Virus record (IMG/VR): IMGVR_UViG_3300009157_000040
Coordinates: 1 to 28,515 of that record
Reading direction: 5' to 3' (one strand)
Length of the DNA stretch: 28,515 nt
DNA from: a virus
Position numbers and translations under genes: made by a program. Below, in pieces: positions 1 through 27,086 of this stretch. Every line of letters starts with the position of its first letter. The stretch's first letter is position 1. The notes beneath the pieces were generated by a model. It made no database searches, was not told the origin of the DNA, and saw only the letters and a list, made by a program, of their open reading frames with translations.

Positions 1-24
1 AAGTCTGAACGGTGCCGTTTCCAT
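1..24 (-). CDS. Partial CDS, N-terminal fragment only (8 codons)
   Basis: An ATG at 24-22 overlaps the TAA stop of the radical SAM gene by one base, the same TAATG junction used repeatedly in this operon. The visible residues are METAPFRL, then the window ends. Too little remains to suggest a function. Position suggests it continues the HxD/radical SAM operon and may be translationally coupled to it. Confidence 0.4.
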
Positions 25-1217
25 TATCGTCTCACCTCTGCAATAGCTTGCACTCGAGTATCTGTGTGATCGCCGTGCGAATCCCCATGTGGGGAATCAG
101 CATGAGATATGCTCTGTTTCCCAGCACTTAGGAAAGCTCGTTCCCACTTCTCTCGGTCAGGATGCAATGACGTTGGAGTCTCCCCGAGTTCCAACATCAA
201 GTTCTCGTAGTGCTCAAAGATGGCCATGATGACGCCACAGTGTTCTGTCCTGTTGCGCCAATCACCATCGATTCCAGTGCCTGGACACTCGCCCTTACAC
301 ATGAGGAAGAAGCGGCACCCCTTGCAACCACCATACTTGTAGGGCGTGTTGTAGAGCGCATGTTGTCGCTCGATACCTGTAGTGTCGGACTTTGTCCAAT
401 CGACGCCCATCTTGTTCGTGCGATTGCAATTCGTCAGCTGTCCTTGGCCGTTAATGCCTTGAACTGCAGCGGTAGCTAACGAGTCACAGGCATGCCAAAC
501 ACAGTTCGTAGGCTCTCCAGAGCGCTTTAGGAGAGCCTTGTATTCCCTGAAGTTGTTAAACTTGAGGTGAGTGAACTGCCTCTCGAGGGACATGAGTTGC
601 TTCATACGTTCGATAAGGAGCGGCATATCGACGCGTAGTTTAGAAGCCTTGACCCCGTCAACCTCTAGATAATGCAAATTCACCCACCTCAACCCGAGCT
701 TGTCCAATCTGAGGAACCAGTCGCAGAGCATCTGGAACGATTCCTCGTCGCAGTTGCCCTTCCAAAGTGTGGTAATCAGAGAGACGGCGAGTCCCTCTTG
801 GTGGAGCTTCTCGATAGCATCCGTTGTTCTCTTAGTTGCCACGCGAGTTTCTTCCTGTGTTCCTGCTGCGCGCGCATCAGAGCATCTTTCCGGGCCATCG
901 CAAGAGATGCCGATATGCGTTCGATATCTCTTAAACAAATCAATGTGCGCCTCCGTAATGAGTGTAGCGTTAGTCTGGATACCAGAGCTACCGTCACGCT
1001 CAAAGCTGTACTTCAGTATCTGCTCGACGCGACTGAACGGAGCTAGAAGTGGTTCACCTCCGTGCAAAGAGAATGACCCATGCTTGTCCAGCTCGGCGCG
1101 CACCTTCTCCCAGTCCCATGGGACGTTGACGTTCTTCGCGTCACGCATGGGATTCTCGTAGCAATAGGTGCAACCAATGTTACATGCTACGCCGACTGGA
1201 TTGACCTCTACGCTCAT
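24..1217 (-). CDS. Radical SAM/SPASM enzyme with C-terminal HxD motifs
   Basis: 397 residues. The CX3CX2C cluster ligand of radical SAM enzymes is at C12, C16 and C19, followed by GGEP at 53-56, QTNATL at 81-86 and SCDGP at 105-109, as in anSME-like peptide and protein maturases. A SPASM domain follows: C239, C244, C264, the signature CX2CX5CX3C at C298/C301/C307/C311, and C327, which should bind auxiliary iron-sulfur clusters. The ATG at 1217 is chosen because it forms an ATGA overlap with the preceding gene and lies just ahead of the CX3CX2C motif; the open frame extends 60 residues further, but that extension overlaps the 85-residue gene and is Arg-rich shadow. The C-terminus (372-386) carries HAD, HGD, HGD and HTD, matching the repeat protein two genes upstream. 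By family it reductively cleaves SAM to start radical chemistry on a peptide or protein; the HxD protein as substrate is inference. Confidence 0.93.
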   Translation of the reverse strand: MSVEVNPVGVACNIGCTYCYENPMRDAKNVNVPWDWEKVRAELDKHGSFSLHGGEPLLAPFSRVEQILKYSFERDGSSGIQTNATLITEAHIDLFKRYRTHIGISCDGPERCSDARAAGTQEETRVATKRTTDAIEKLHQEGLAVSLITTLWKGNCDEESFQMLCDWFLRLDKLGLRWVNLHYLEVDGVKASKLRVDMPLLIERMKQLMSLERQFTHLKFNNFREYKALLKRSGEPTNCVWHACDSLATAAVQGINGQGQLTNCNRTNKMGVDWTKSDTTGIERQHALYNTPYKYGGCKGCRFFLMCKGECPGTGIDGDWRNRTEHCGVIMAIFEHYENLMLELGETPTSLHPDREKWERAFLSAGKQSISHADSPHGDSHGDHTDTRVQAIAEVRR

Positions 1218-1471
1218 GCTGTCAACCGGACGTTCGCGGTGCCGCCGTTGACTCGCAGGAATCCCGCCGCCACGTCGACGCCGGATTCCGAGAATGCCGC
1301 TCCGGTAGCAACGACGCTGTTCTTCGCGCCGGTCATGTCGAAGTTGTTGCTGATGTCGATAGAAGTTGCTGTTCCTGGAGTTACGAACAGTCGGCACTTC
1401 CGACTCGGCAGCGCGCGAACGACGTTATCCGCGATTGCGTGAGTGATTCCAATGCTGAGTGATGCAGGCAT
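1214..1471 (-). CDS. Small hypothetical protein between the HxD protein and radical SAM enzyme
   Basis: 85 residues, rich in Ala, Val, Thr, Ser and Gly with alternating hydrophobic residues, suggesting a small beta-rich fold. It has a single Cys (C27), no signal peptide and no membrane segment. It starts four bases after the HxD gene's stop, with GGAG a few bases upstream inside the end of that gene, and its stop overlaps the radical SAM start as ATGA. The three genes are therefore very likely co-translated. It could be a small virion decoration or fibre-tip protein, or an accessory to the modification. I do not recognise the family. It replaces the Arg-rich reading of this DNA in the radical SAM frame. 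Confidence 0.75.
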   Translation of the reverse strand: MPASLSIGITHAIADNVVRALPSRKCRLFVTPGTATSIDISNNFDMTGAKNSVVATGAAFSESGVDVAAGFLRVNGGTANVRLTA

Positions 1472-1474
1472 GTC

Positions 1475-2416
1475 CTACTCCACGAATTCTGGTTGAACGA
1501 TAGATGCTATGTCACCGTGGTCGTTGTGCCCTGTGTCAACATGGTCCACGTCGATGTGAGCCACGTCGTTGAATGGTGTATCACCATGACCATCCTTGTG
1601 ATCATTGTGACTTACGTCACTGTGTGCCACGTCCTTGTGAGCCGTGTCATCATGGTCGTTATCAGTATGATCAGAATGCGCTGTGTCTTGATGTGCCACA
1701 TCCTGATGCGCTACGTCACCGTGTGAATCCCCGTGCGCAGTGTCATTGTGAATGTCCTGATGTGGGAAGTCAGTATGGATAGGCGCGTAGTCGTTATGAT
1801 ACCGACCATCATAGTGGTCTGAGTATTGCGATACTTGATCACCGTGAGCATTGTCTCCATGCCCATCGAGGTGCGAAGTGTTCTGGTCGTTATGTGTATC
1901 AACGTGCGTAACGTCTGTATGACTATCCTTGTGCGCTGTATCGTTATGGTCGTTGTCCTGATGGTCAACGTGAGTAACGTCTTGATGAGCAACGTCCGTA
2001 TGAGTGTTATCAGTATGGTCCTGATGTGATGAGTCTGAGTGCGCTACGTCTGTATGAACTAAGTCACCGTGTCCGGTATCGCTGTGAGTCGCATCCGTGT
2101 GGTCAACGTGAGCCACATCCGTATGACCCTGTCGATGCCCTTTGTCAGATGCAAGCCAAGCGATTCGCTTCTGATTATCAACCCAAACACTACCAGCAAT
2201 ACCAGTCGTGGTCTTGATGAAAGTATTCTCGATGCGCCGCTCCTGACCACTTGAATCGATATAATGAAGATAGTCTCCTTCAATCCACAATGACCCAGGA
2301 ATGGCACTCGGCACATCTGTGACAAATGAACCAATATACCTCCACTCGCTACCGTCATCCGGAACGAAGTGGAGATAATCGCCTTCTATCCAAAGGCTAC
2401 CTGGGAGCTTAGCCAT
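1475..2416 (-). CDS. His-x-Asp repeat protein, probably fibre-associated
   Basis: 313 residues in two parts. Residues 1-92 contain three related modules, PGSLWIEGDYLH at 5-16 and 40-51 and a degenerate GSVWVDNQK near 75-83, each followed by a short beta-like stretch. Residues 98-302 hold about 42 HxD motifs, mostly in the pentad HxDxx with occasional direct HxDHxD pairs; the middle residue varies (T, V, S, G, Q, N, K, L, Y, I, D). There is no Cys anywhere, so Cys-based thioether links within it are excluded. His uses both CAC and CAT and Asp both GAC and GAT, pointing to selection on the protein rather than recent DNA expansion. It sits directly after fibre-like genes and before a radical SAM/SPASM enzyme. 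Metal binding, a pentad beta-helix, or modification at His or Asp are all possible; none is shown. Confidence 0.9.
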   Translation of the reverse strand: MAKLPGSLWIEGDYLHFVPDDGSEWRYIGSFVTDVPSAIPGSLWIEGDYLHYIDSSGQERRIENTFIKTTTGIAGSVWVDNQKRIAWLASDKGHRQGHTDVAHVDHTDATHSDTGHGDLVHTDVAHSDSSHQDHTDNTHTDVAHQDVTHVDHQDNDHNDTAHKDSHTDVTHVDTHNDQNTSHLDGHGDNAHGDQVSQYSDHYDGRYHNDYAPIHTDFPHQDIHNDTAHGDSHGDVAHQDVAHQDTAHSDHTDNDHDDTAHKDVAHSDVSHNDHKDGHGDTPFNDVAHIDVDHVDTGHNDHGDIASIVQPEFVE

Positions 2417-2880
2417 TAGCTCGTTGCGAACTTATCAGCACCAACAGGAATGACCATACCCGACCGCACGTAGATTGTTGCTGGTCGATTGGCATTGCTT
2501 CCAATCTTGTTGGCATTGTCTGCCACGAACGAGATGTCACCTGTCATCCCAAGAGCAGAGATGCCAGTGAGTGTTCCACCTGTGACGTTAATTCCATTCG
2601 CGTTCTGAATGGACATCGTCCCGAGGCCAAGATTCGTCCGGATACCAGCCGCAGTGGTCGCGCCAGTTCCACCACCGGCAATCGAGAGAACCTTGTCAAT
2701 CCACTGCGCACCATCCCACTCCTGAAAGACGTTGGTCGCGCGGAAGTAACGGATAGAGCCGACTGGTTGATTGGACGGCCCACCCGAGAACATCTGTGCC
2801 GAGTCGTTCAGGCGAGCGTCGACCTCCGCCACGAAGTCGGTGTAGAGACTCGCCAGCGTAGGCAGAGACCAATCAGCCAT
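2416..2880 (-). CDS. Tail-fibre-like protein with phage fibre repeat
   Basis: 154 residues. An N-terminal part (about 1-65) includes GSIRYFRATNVFQEWDGAQW, a type of stretch common in phage fibre and appendage proteins. It is followed by a Gly/Thr/Asn-rich segment with GGGTGATT near 89-96 and TNLGLG near 102-107, the classic collar of trimeric tail-fibre repeats. Thus it is probably a short fibre or fibre segment. Its start overlaps the stop of the upstream coiled-coil gene (TAATG) and its stop overlaps the HxD gene start the same way, tying the HxD protein to the fibre module. Family identity is inferred from motifs only. Confidence 0.8.
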   Translation of the reverse strand: MADWSLPTLASLYTDFVAEVDARLNDSAQMFSGGPSNQPVGSIRYFRATNVFQEWDGAQWIDKVLSIAGGGTGATTAAGIRTNLGLGTMSIQNANGINVTGGTLTGISALGMTGDISFVADNANKIGSNANRPATIYVRSGMVIPVGADKFATS

Positions 2881-18146: not shown

Positions 18147-18632
18147 CTAGCGCTTCTTCGGCTGCGCGACCTCGTCCTTGACCGGCACGAGGACCCAGCC
18201 GTAGACCGGAGTCCACTTCAGCTCGAACCTCTGACCCGGATCGGGCAGGGAGTTGTCGGGGCGCGCGCCACCGGAGGGCAGCGTGTTGTCCGGCTTGTCA
18301 CCGGGCTTGGATGGCGTGCCGGGAAGCGTGTTGTCGGGCCGCGGTCCCGATCCGGGCAACGTGTTGTCCACGACCGGCGGAAAGACGGGCAGGTGGACGG
18401 GGAATCCCGGCGGAGGCGTCGGCAGCGTGTTGTCGGGTCCGGGACCGTCGGGCGGCGTGACGGGCGGCCAGATGACGTCGGGCGGCGACGGGATGTGAAT
18501 GGGATGCGACGGATGCGCTCCGCCTCCCGGCAGTCCCTGGTCGGGGCGCGGCGGCGGACCACCGGGCAGGGTGTTGTCCGGGCGGCCTCGGAACTCCAGA
18601 ATCGTGATGAGTGCCAGCTTCGTTGTCGACAT
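18147..18632 (-). CDS. Pro-rich PDNTLP-repeat protein
   Basis: 161 residues. Repeats of the motif (R/K/G)PDNTLPG occur near residues 17-24, 66-71, 88-94, 98-105, 113-120 and 124-130, with a variant RPDQGLPG near 29-36. A leading segment (MSTTKLALITILEFRG) and a folded-looking tail (FELKWTPVYGWVLVPVKDE) bracket the repeats. From memory, PDNTLP-type repeats occur in other uncultured phages; I cannot confirm this here. GGAG precedes the ATG. It lies between a DUF6496-like gene and a low-complexity gene. Function unknown; the Pro-rich repeats suggest an extended spacer. Confidence 0.75.
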   Translation of the reverse strand: MSTTKLALITILEFRGRPDNTLPGGPPPRPDQGLPGGGAHPSHPIHIPSPPDVIWPPVTPPDGPGPDNTLPTPPPGFPVHLPVFPPVVDNTLPGSGPRPDNTLPGTPSKPGDKPDNTLPSGGARPDNSLPDPGQRFELKWTPVYGWVLVPVKDEVAQPKKR

Positions 18633-25493: not shown

Positions 25494-27086
25494 ATGGCTA
25501 CGATACACAGAAAATGCGAGGAATGTGGCAAAGTCGCAAAGGTGCAAACCGAGATCAAGCTGGATTTCGGTCGATACACCATTTACGAGTGCGGCCACTC
25601 AGTCGTATTCAAGGGCATCGAGAACAACGAGGCTATCTACCTCAAGTCCAGAACTGGCAAGGAACTCTTTCCGTTCCAAGCCGACACAATCAAGTTCATG
25701 GAGGAGGCAGGTGGTGTCGTTCTTGTCGGTCACGAGATGGCGCTCGGCAAGACTGTGTGCGCCAGCGGATTCGTTTCACGGAATCGTGAAGACGCCCTTC
25801 CTTGCTTGACCCTTTGCAGGTCCAGCATCAAAGTCAACTGGCTGCGCGAGTTCTTGGACTGGTCGGGGTTGGTTTCCCAGATCATCGACAAGAGCATCGA
25901 GCGCCCTCACCTCGACATCTTCCCCATCACCGTCATGTCCATCGACATGTTCGCTCGTGTGTCTAACAAGACCATCACGAAGAATGGTGTCGCTGGAACT
26001 CCGAATCCTGAGTATTGGGGTGAGGACATTTGGAAGCAATACAAGACGGTCATCATCGACGAGTGCCAGAGCATCAAGAACCCCGACAGCCAGAGGTCAC
26101 AGGCCATCAAGAGGTGCTTCGCTGAAACGAAGTATCGCATCCCGATGAGCGGCACAGCTGTCAAGAACGCGGCGCACGAATATTTCCCGGTCTTGAACTG
26201 GCTGCGACCGGACATCTTCTCGTCATACGCTGGCTTCATCAACAACGAGACCATCGGACGGCGGCTCGCTAACCCGACTCGCTTTCATGACAAGACCAAG
26301 GACTTCATCATTCGCAAGACGAGGGCCGAGGTTCTTCCTGACCTCCCCAAGATCATGCGGACGTTCCGTCCAGTTCAGATGGACGATGAAGTTCTGATTC
26401 GGAAGTATCAGGAAACTGTCGACGAGTTCACCGCGTGGATGGACGAGAACGAGGATAAGATGTCGCCTGCGGGCTACACCAACCTCCTCGCGTTCTTCGC
26501 CAAGATGCGGAAGATTACAGGAGTCGCCAAGGTTCCTGCAGCAATCGACTACGTCGAGGAGTTCCTTCTGGACTGTGACCGCAAACTGGTCGTGTTCTTG
26601 CACCACAAGGACGTGGCTATGCTCCTGACCAATCGTCTCAACAAGACGATGAAGGAGATGGGGCGCGGCCCGGTCTTGAGCTTCCACTCGGGGCTGGACT
26701 CCACACAGCGCCAGATGGTCATTGACGACTTCTACAAGCCCGAGAATCGCATCATGATTGCCAGCACACTTGCTGCTGGTGAGGGCATCAATCTCCAGTG
26801 CTGCTCGGACTGCCTCATGCTGGAGCGTCAATGGAACCCGGCTAATGAGGAGCAGGCGGAAGCACGTTTCCCCCGTCCTGGACAGCTGGCCGATAAGATC
26901 AACGCAACCTACCTCTTCGCGCTCGGCACCATTGACGAGTTCCTTGGGGAGCTTGTTGAGGGCAAGCGGGTTGCGGTGAAGTCCACGCTCGACAACAGGG
27001 AGTTGAGCTGGGAGGAATCCTCACTGATGCGCGACCTCGCGGACGCCATCTGGAAGGCAGGCAACAAGCGGTGGAACTACAAATGA
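25494..27086 (+). CDS. SNF2-type DNA-dependent ATPase/helicase
   Basis: 530 residues. An N-terminal zinc-like part (C8, C11, C33) precedes two RecA-like domains. Motif I is GHEMALGKT (79-87), motif II IIDECQ (187-192), motif III SGTAVKN (219-225), motif V STLAAGEGINLQ (424-435) and motif VI QWNPANEEQAEARFPRPGQ (446-464). SNF2 enzymes usually read D-E-x-G-L-G-K-T, DEAH and QAxxRxxRxGQ; here motif I starts GHEMA, motif II is DECQ and the last arginine finger region reads ARFPRPGQ. It is a translocase that may remodel DNA-bound proteins or unwind forks. It has its own promoter and operator. ATPase lysine (K86) and motif II acids are intact, so activity is likely. Confidence 0.92.
   Translation: MATIHRKCEECGKVAKVQTEIKLDFGRYTIYECGHSVVFKGIENNEAIYLKSRTGKELFPFQADTIKFMEEAGGVVLVGHEMALGKTVCASGFVSRNREDALPCLTLCRSSIKVNWLREFLDWSGLVSQIIDKSIERPHLDIFPITVMSIDMFARVSNKTITKNGVAGTPNPEYWGEDIWKQYKTVIIDECQSIKNPDSQRSQAIKRCFAETKYRIPMSGTAVKNAAHEYFPVLNWLRPDIFSSYAGFINNETIGRRLANPTRFHDKTKDFIIRKTRAEVLPDLPKIMRTFRPVQMDDEVLIRKYQETVDEFTAWMDENEDKMSPAGYTNLLAFFAKMRKITGVAKVPAAIDYVEEFLLDCDRKLVVFLHHKDVAMLLTNRLNKTMKEMGRGPVLSFHSGLDSTQRQMVIDDFYKPENRIMIASTLAAGEGINLQCCSDCLMLERQWNPANEEQAEARFPRPGQLADKINATYLFALGTIDEFLGELVEGKRVAVKSTLDNRELSWEESSLMRDLADAIWKAGNKRWNYK

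Follow-up and report, generated by a model that had tools for sequence, protein, structure and literature searches.

Cyclophane-forming radical SAM (rSAM) enzymes join an aromatic ring at position i to a side-chain carbon at position i+2; in the account given in PMC11002830, the known rings are those of Trp, Phe, Tyr and His, and the known i+2 partners include Asp and Asn. The closest described systems are the three-residue cyclophane-forming rSAM enzymes (3-CyFEs) XncB, OscB, YxdB and HaaB, for which PMC11002830 gives the substrate rule of an aromatic residue at i and Asp/Asn at i+2, and ChlB, which is named a multiple cyclophane synthase in a title within the reference list of PMC12636437. 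The enzyme studied here shares with them the rSAM/SPASM fold (Z 28.3 against ChlB) and this substrate rule. The 3-CyFEs act on a short precursor, whereas the enzymes with a C-terminal HxD tail described below are predicted to act on arrays of about 17-78 motifs, carried by phage proteins or other large proteins. Besides, in these tailed enzymes His dominates the motif, the motif is also present in the enzyme, none of the family cut-offs is reached, and the cross-link is deduced from sequence.

Three other systems invite comparison. Kolesnik 2024 reports an rSAM-DUF483 module in the Thermus phages Cumys and phiMa and suggests that it modifies DNA (PMC11437467). It contains the same enzyme family with a DUF483 gene; section 3.4 of that paper, where DNA modification is proposed, mentions neither the HxD array nor the tail. 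It turned out that the Cumys and phiMa enzymes have the same kind of tail, with an array gene adjoining, whose product in Cumys is Cumys_13. The iron-binding HxH tail fibres described for T4 gp37 and alterophage R22Y likewise repeat a short His motif in a phage tail protein, but the arrays here consist of HxD/HxN with aromatic replacements, are far denser, go with an rSAM enzyme and do not show the paired-His pattern. In His-Xaa-Ser (Hxs) systems, as their family names tell, an rSAM maturase stands beside a His-x-polar repeat protein. The present enzyme differs, with an HxsB profile score of 29.1 of 370 bits (below the cut-off), the motif HxD and a DUF483-like partner. Among the matches listed from titles and abstracts of the open-licence literature, none links cyclophane or rSAM cross-linking to tail proteins of phages.

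The window, that is, the whole stretch of DNA analysed, is a virus record of 28,515 bases, with the structural and packaging genes on the minus strand. The features at its left end are as follows.

24..1217, minus strand: radical SAM/SPASM enzyme of 397 aa, with CxxxCxxC at C12, C16 and C19
60..104, minus strand: C-terminal HxD tail of the rSAM enzyme, residues 372-386 (HADSPHGDSHGDHTD), inside the predicted-disordered segment 368-397
1214..1471, minus strand: small ORF of 85 aa between the array gene and the enzyme, with a 4-base overlap with the enzyme start
1475..2416, minus strand: HxD-repeat protein of 313 aa, with three N-terminal GSxW repeats followed by the array
1511..2125, minus strand: HxD array proper, the presumed enzyme substrate (coordinates derived from the translation)
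2416..2880, minus strand: ORF adjoining the array gene on its 5' side; weak PHROG matches to tail fibres (best E 2e-6)

The tail-fibre matches of the last ORF indicate that the rSAM/array module sits among tail genes. The whole HxD-repeat protein contains 42 H-x-D/N motifs. Family searches gave no family for the small ORF at 1214..1471, and promoters and terminators around the module did not rise above chance. The DUF483-methyltransferase gene expected directly 3' of the rSAM gene is truncated by the left end of the window (1-24), while the sister contig L015 (loci are cited by L numbers) has it at L015:7194-8522 (443 aa).

The sequence-only reading had pointed to HAD, HGD, HGD and HTD at residues 372-386 of the rSAM enzyme, and this is borne out: the stretch reads HAD SP HGD S HGD HTD, with H372 at bases 102-104 and D386 at bases 60-62 of the gene at 24-1217 (minus strand), and the C-terminus of the protein reads SHADSPHGDSHGDHTDTRVQAIAEVRR. 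As background, 8 HxD motifs were counted in the 27 other window ORFs taken as proteins (6,849 aa; repeat gene and enzyme excluded). At this rate, the Poisson probability of at least four HxD in 31 aa is 7e-8, and when the letters of the tail are shuffled, only 5 of 100,000 permutations reach four HxD. Chance was ruled out as the source of the tail motifs by the Poisson estimate, by the shuffles, and by conservation in viral relatives and in enzymes found from array DNA.

When homologous enzymes were aligned, as had been proposed, the tail was present in every close homologue that was found (76-83% identity), not lost from them as expected of a chance scar. The IMG/VR phages supplied further rSAM relatives at 76-83% and 41-43% identity, and the Thermus phages Cumys, phiMa and phiLo have relatives at 41-45% identity, all three with the tail. 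In alignment A1 (11 enzymes, window included), H381, G382, D383, H384 and D386 are invariant in 11 of 11 rows, and the preceding linker is variable. Wider scans with A1 gave 65 viral and 68 genomic loci, to which the three Thermus phages and the window were then added; 125 distinct enzymes remained after removal of duplicates (L005-L012, found again as L013-L017, L036, L039 and L041), remote rSAM proteins (L075-L077), a broken frame (L040), enzymes with the C-terminus off the contig (L073 and L074) and six identical proteins (131 to 125). At least two HxD follow the SPASM region in 58 of the 125, namely 51 of 57 viral and 7 of 68 genomic enzymes. These 58 tails have 2-9 motifs, and HGDHxD is present in 36 of them. 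Among the ORFs listed for other genes with an HxD tail in these loci, one in L019 stands out.

As a control that is blind to the enzyme, we scanned for the codons of four HxD spaced two residues apart, which gave at least 120 stretches, 51 of those listed having a dense in-frame array. This rSAM family is found at 33 of these 51, and at 23 of the 30 listed that have 2.5 kb or more downstream; these 23 comprise 20 distinct enzymes, of which 9 were already in the main set. Among the matches listed, 13 new distinct enzymes have a complete C-terminus; 12 of them carry at least two HxD in the tail and the other carries one. On these comparisons, the tail is a real conserved part of the enzyme and not an accident. 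The 7 of 30 listed stretches without the enzyme are six monotonous tandem repeats (L167, L193, L210, L227, L254 and L261) and L194, a true short array of 13 motifs. Arrays of this short type (L194, L165, L216 and L222; 13-14 motifs) have no enzyme nearby, and among their four whole records (36-105 kb) the enzyme occurs in one, elsewhere in the record, beside its own arrays and with a short tail ending in HADHTD. In addition to the arrays adjoining its enzyme, the L222 record contains one of its own type.

The tail is written differently from the arrays. Gly fills the x position of HxD in 165 of 263 tail motifs (63%) versus 347 of 2,000 array motifs (17%), and Gly at x is commoner in the tail than in the own array in 49 of 54 loci. 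For the same 54 loci, HGDHxD accounts for 39 of 248 tail motifs versus 22 of 2,000 array motifs, which makes it about 14 times commoner in the tail. Phages with HxN-rich arrays (L036, L039, L041 and L043) keep HGD/HTD tails. The Gly bias, HGDHxD and the HxN-rich partners rejected the tail as an exact copy of its partner's repeats, and therefore the tail seems to be under selection of its own. As for the arrays themselves, Asn largely replaces Asp (HxN) in L036, L041, L043 and L057.

Whether the tail co-varies with the repeats next door, a check that the earlier reading had suggested, has a divided answer: its presence follows array length, with exceptions, but the repeat letters are not followed, as HxN-rich arrays go with HGD/HTD tails. 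Arrays were detected as at least 6 motifs in 120 aa, where the smallest (6-7 motifs) may be chance ORFs. The fetched flanks contain an array for 54 of 58 tailed enzymes (17-78 motifs, median 36) and for 34 of 67 tailless enzymes (median 14 motifs). In the viruses, all 47 tailed enzymes used have at least 21 motifs, and 5 of 6 tailless ones have at most 17. Two tailed enzymes, L062 and L072, have almost no upstream DNA, and L074, at the other end of L062's record, has a 21-motif array; tailed L071 has a 41-motif array far off within its 55-kb record, and no array was found in the 8-kb record of tailed L034. L089 and L097 hold arrays missed by the detection rule. Eight enzymes are tailless and nevertheless have an array of at least 18 motifs (L067, L079, L086, L088, L091, L098, L105 and L116). 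Judged by the 34 tailless enzymes with an array, the tail is not a general requirement.

Contrasts on the tree, for which the tail was scored as present or absent and in which many forks are open, gave r 0.44 between tail and array length (p 1e-6; 112 rows, left from 122 after rows without a known array were removed). The correlation is 0.62 for the 53 viral rows and 0.28 (p 0.03) for the 59 genomic rows, and 14 of 18 contrasts with a large tail change go in the expected direction. Array sizes were set by hand for the HID and Pseudoalteromonas precursors, L025, L089 and L097, and the tree leaves out L062, L072 and L143 (partial). An independent-pairs test of tail against long array yielded only two pairs on well supported branches.

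Array and enzyme genes can be non-adjacent, for example 5.8 kb apart on opposite strands in phiLo (L004), and they lie far apart in one record in L071/L267 and L222/L266. Besides, large proteins with HxD arrays (about 930-1,400 aa) were seen on the genomic contigs L079, L091, L094, L103, L110, L111, L119 and L139; these arrays are C-terminal where examined, near tailless or DUF483-fused enzymes.

To describe the array motif beyond His, we counted the residue at -2 of orphan Asp/Asn (those outside H-x-D/N motifs) in 84 distinct arrays. In this pooled set Tyr is enriched 4.3-fold, Phe 3.9-fold and Trp 5.2-fold, the next residue being Glu (1.3). Tyr, Phe or Trp stands at -2 of 214 of 705 orphan Asp/Asn, versus a background of 6.9%, and 300 shuffles give at most 81. 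The aromatic peak lies at -2 (30%; 15% at -1 and 14% at -4). Leaving out the three richest loci gives 153 of 597, and thinning the remaining set gives 120 of 455. L071, whose array lies outside that pooled set, has an aromatic residue at -2 of 23 of 33 orphan Asp/Asn. Enrichment at -2 in the tailless arrays extends to Glu (12, four loci) and Ser, and in the tails only 9 of 42 orphan Asp/Asn are preceded at -2 by Trp or Tyr. The window's own group of five arrays has F 7, Y 2 and W 1 of 65, where T, D, G, Q and P are equally common. By these counts, the motif rule is aromatic-x-Asp/Asn with His preferred, clearest in the pooled set and weak in the window's own group. As a rule of sequence only, it matches the i/i+2 signature of the cyclophane-forming rSAM enzymes. 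The divergent phage arrays of L063, L065, L069 and L267 (the L071 record) are especially rich in Tyr/Phe/Trp-x-Asp/Asn.

For the enzyme itself, 11 Cys (C12, C16, C19, C239, C244, C264, C298, C301, C307, C311 and C327) are invariant in the 75 rows of A3, which were picked from 105 unfused full-length enzymes with the most divergent viral enzymes excluded. The protein thus has the rSAM CxxxCxxC and the SPASM auxiliary cysteines that mark 3-CyFE/triceptide enzymes. The structure model has a mean pLDDT of 88.7, with residues 1-367 mostly at high confidence and the tail region 368-397 below 50, i.e. predicted disordered. The nearest solved folds are tied, ChlB (Z 28.3, rmsd 3.1, 322 aligned) and anSME (Z 28.0, rmsd 2.9, 315 aligned), and the two lead by sequence profile too. 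Since one is a cyclophane synthase and the other a sulfatase-maturing enzyme, the fold does not select the reaction. None of the best 25 NCBIfam models reaches its cut-off (AmcB 83.3 of 425 bits, DynA 75.7 of 450, GrrM/OscB 55 of 310), and the enzyme is therefore likened to a 3-CyFE and not assigned to any named family.

A DUF483-like gene is present in 121 of 125 enzyme loci, usually as the next gene 3' of the enzyme or as a fusion with it. Of the four loci without it, two (the window and L086) stop at the contig edge and two (L025 and L061) do not. Alignment A4 took in 56 of the 86 candidates, and Pfam DUF483 matches 34 of these 56 members at E 0.01 or better. A methyltransferase domain is frequent in the DUF483-like protein; in the window's sister L015 it is of class I and took up the fold-search matches. 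Its nearest relative is the plantazolicin methyltransferase by profile and by Foldseek (BpumL first), while VIA-align puts NodS first (Z 15.1).

A short peptide gene was found near 20 of 68 genomic enzymes, all tailless, by a filter that required HxD/N at the C-terminus (L092, L113, L117, L120, L123, L124, L126-L134, L136, L138, L140, L144 and L145). These ORFs have 76-107 aa by the first start codon and a core that is mostly HID (HLD in L130, HVD in L136), and the organisms include Bradyrhizobium, Sphingomonas, Tahibacter, Aquimarina, Dokdonia and Marinicella. In precursor loci that were checked, a RiPP C-methyltransferase lies near L092 and a YydG-like epimerase-type rSAM near L123. Apparently these loci are uncharacterised RiPP-like clusters, and nothing relevant to them was found in the literature among the matches listed. 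The partner of the window enzyme is a 313-aa tail-module protein. The precursor's one HID and the phage protein's dozens of HxD together make the best argument that the enzyme acts on HxD.

Our main reading, to which we give a probability of about one half, is that the enzyme cross-links the array motifs and that the disordered tail mimics the substrate and serves in docking or self-modification. The rSAM/SPASM maturase would join an aromatic ring (mostly His, sometimes Tyr, Phe or Trp) to the Asp/Asn side chain two residues on, and dozens of motifs would be cross-linked in the neighbouring array protein of the phage tail module, the product being a stiff, cross-linked rod. In relatives, the DUF483-like protein, often with a methyltransferase domain, would work with the enzyme. 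The tail would be a free disordered segment of the same motif class with its own form HGDHxD, a built-in substrate mimic that holds the enzyme on a long array of many sites by binding to either the active site or the array, and it may be cross-linked itself. The cross-link, the array as substrate and the role of the tail are what we infer from sequence and structure model. Docking or auto-modification, two of the roles first suggested for the tail, is its best reading, sequence favouring neither of the two; a segment that is substrate-like, free and tied to long arrays could keep the enzyme on a many-site substrate. More tentatively, and at somewhat less than an even chance, phages of multiple lineages would build a tail-module rod of dozens of C-C cross-links with a maturase whose own mini-substrate serves as docking handle and is perhaps cross-linked, and the bacterial kin would act on short HID peptides.

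The tail might instead be an autoinhibitory pseudosubstrate that occupies the active site until displaced by the array, or a self-modified bystander that is cross-linked a single time and has no part in docking. Its motif class is that of the substrate but its form is its own (Gly at x, HGDHxD), and it sits on a long flexible tether, both of which would suit such a role. This explanation alone, however, leaves the link of the tail with long arrays unaccounted for, and we think it unlikely, though together with the metal-binding segment it is one of the two main rivals.

Less probable still is a metal-binding His/Asp segment, which would hold Fe or another metal for the clusters or deliver it to an array that binds metal. 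Metal chaperones, with their His-rich tails, provide a likeness for this, and HGDHTD could plausibly chelate a metal. Metal ligands are not usually Phe or Trp, yet His is replaced by Tyr, Phe and Trp in the pooled arrays. As Phe and Trp would hardly replace metal ligands, the metal sharing between enzyme and substrate raised at the outset is weakened for the arrays, but not so for the tail. According to PMC11705849, HxH motifs bind iron in the T4 fibre, whereas H-x-H is rare here, H standing at +2 of 13 of 77 non-motif His in all arrays (5 of 35 in the tailed ones) versus 2,000 H-x-D/N motifs in the tailed arrays. Besides, binding alone needs no peptide-modifying rSAM, yet 23 of the 30 testable array stretches listed have one.

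It is quite improbable that the tail serves co-assembly with the array protein, the enzyme travelling in the virion: arrays are often C-terminal on several kinds of protein, as the tail is on the enzyme, but the tails have 2-9 motifs versus about 36 in the arrays.

The suggestion made for Cumys and phiMa, that the rSAM-DUF483 module modifies DNA (PMC11437467), would agree with the methyltransferase domain often found in the DUF483-like protein, and that paper places some relatives near deazapurine genes. We regard it as very unlikely, as HxD arrays or HID precursors accompany the enzyme, peptide or protein maturases make up most of its nearest profiles and folds, and the methyltransferase part is nearest to the plantazolicin methyltransferase (profile and Foldseek).

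The likeness of the tail DNA to the repeat gene had been counted correctly (17 of the first 20 bases, 17 of 21 in full), but it is uninformative, because both stretches encode HGDSHGD, and all their differences are synonymous changes at third positions. If HGDSHGD is coded twice independently with the phage codon usage, the two versions share on average 16.1 of 21 bases, and 42% of draws reach at least 17. The window tail matches its own array at 18 of 24 bases and the arrays of other phages at up to 20 of 24. Across 48 loci the own-array excess is 0.95 of 24 bases (p 3e-5), which may reflect shared codon usage. Gene conversion or fusion of a substrate repeat to the enzyme, which that likeness had brought up, was rejected on three grounds: the DNA identity lies at codon expectation, the window tail resembles arrays of other phages at least as closely as its own, and in 47 of 53 tailed loci the array gene lies directly upstream of the enzyme, the wrong end for a fusion giving a C-terminal tail. 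A chance recombination scar or conversion from the repeat gene, which could cite the 17 of 20 identical bases and the small own-array excess, is hardly credible for an identity expected from codons and for a tail kept across very divergent enzymes with a signature of its own.

If cross-linking of the array by a tailed maturase is true, virions would contain covalently stapled protein rods made by radical chemistry, and RiPP-type chemistry would work on a viral structural protein with the help of a self-substrate tail. We know of no virus in which radical-chemistry stapling stiffens a protein. The conserved tail would be a natural solution for a maturase working about 36 sites on one chain, and the enzyme may serve for stapling repeat proteins. 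Three Thermus phages carry the enzyme, the array and the DUF483-like gene, so the reading is directly testable.

Elsewhere in the window, an ORF at 18147-18632 (minus strand) contains a repeated PDNTLPG motif, and an SNF2-type helicase gene is located at 25494-27086 (plus strand).
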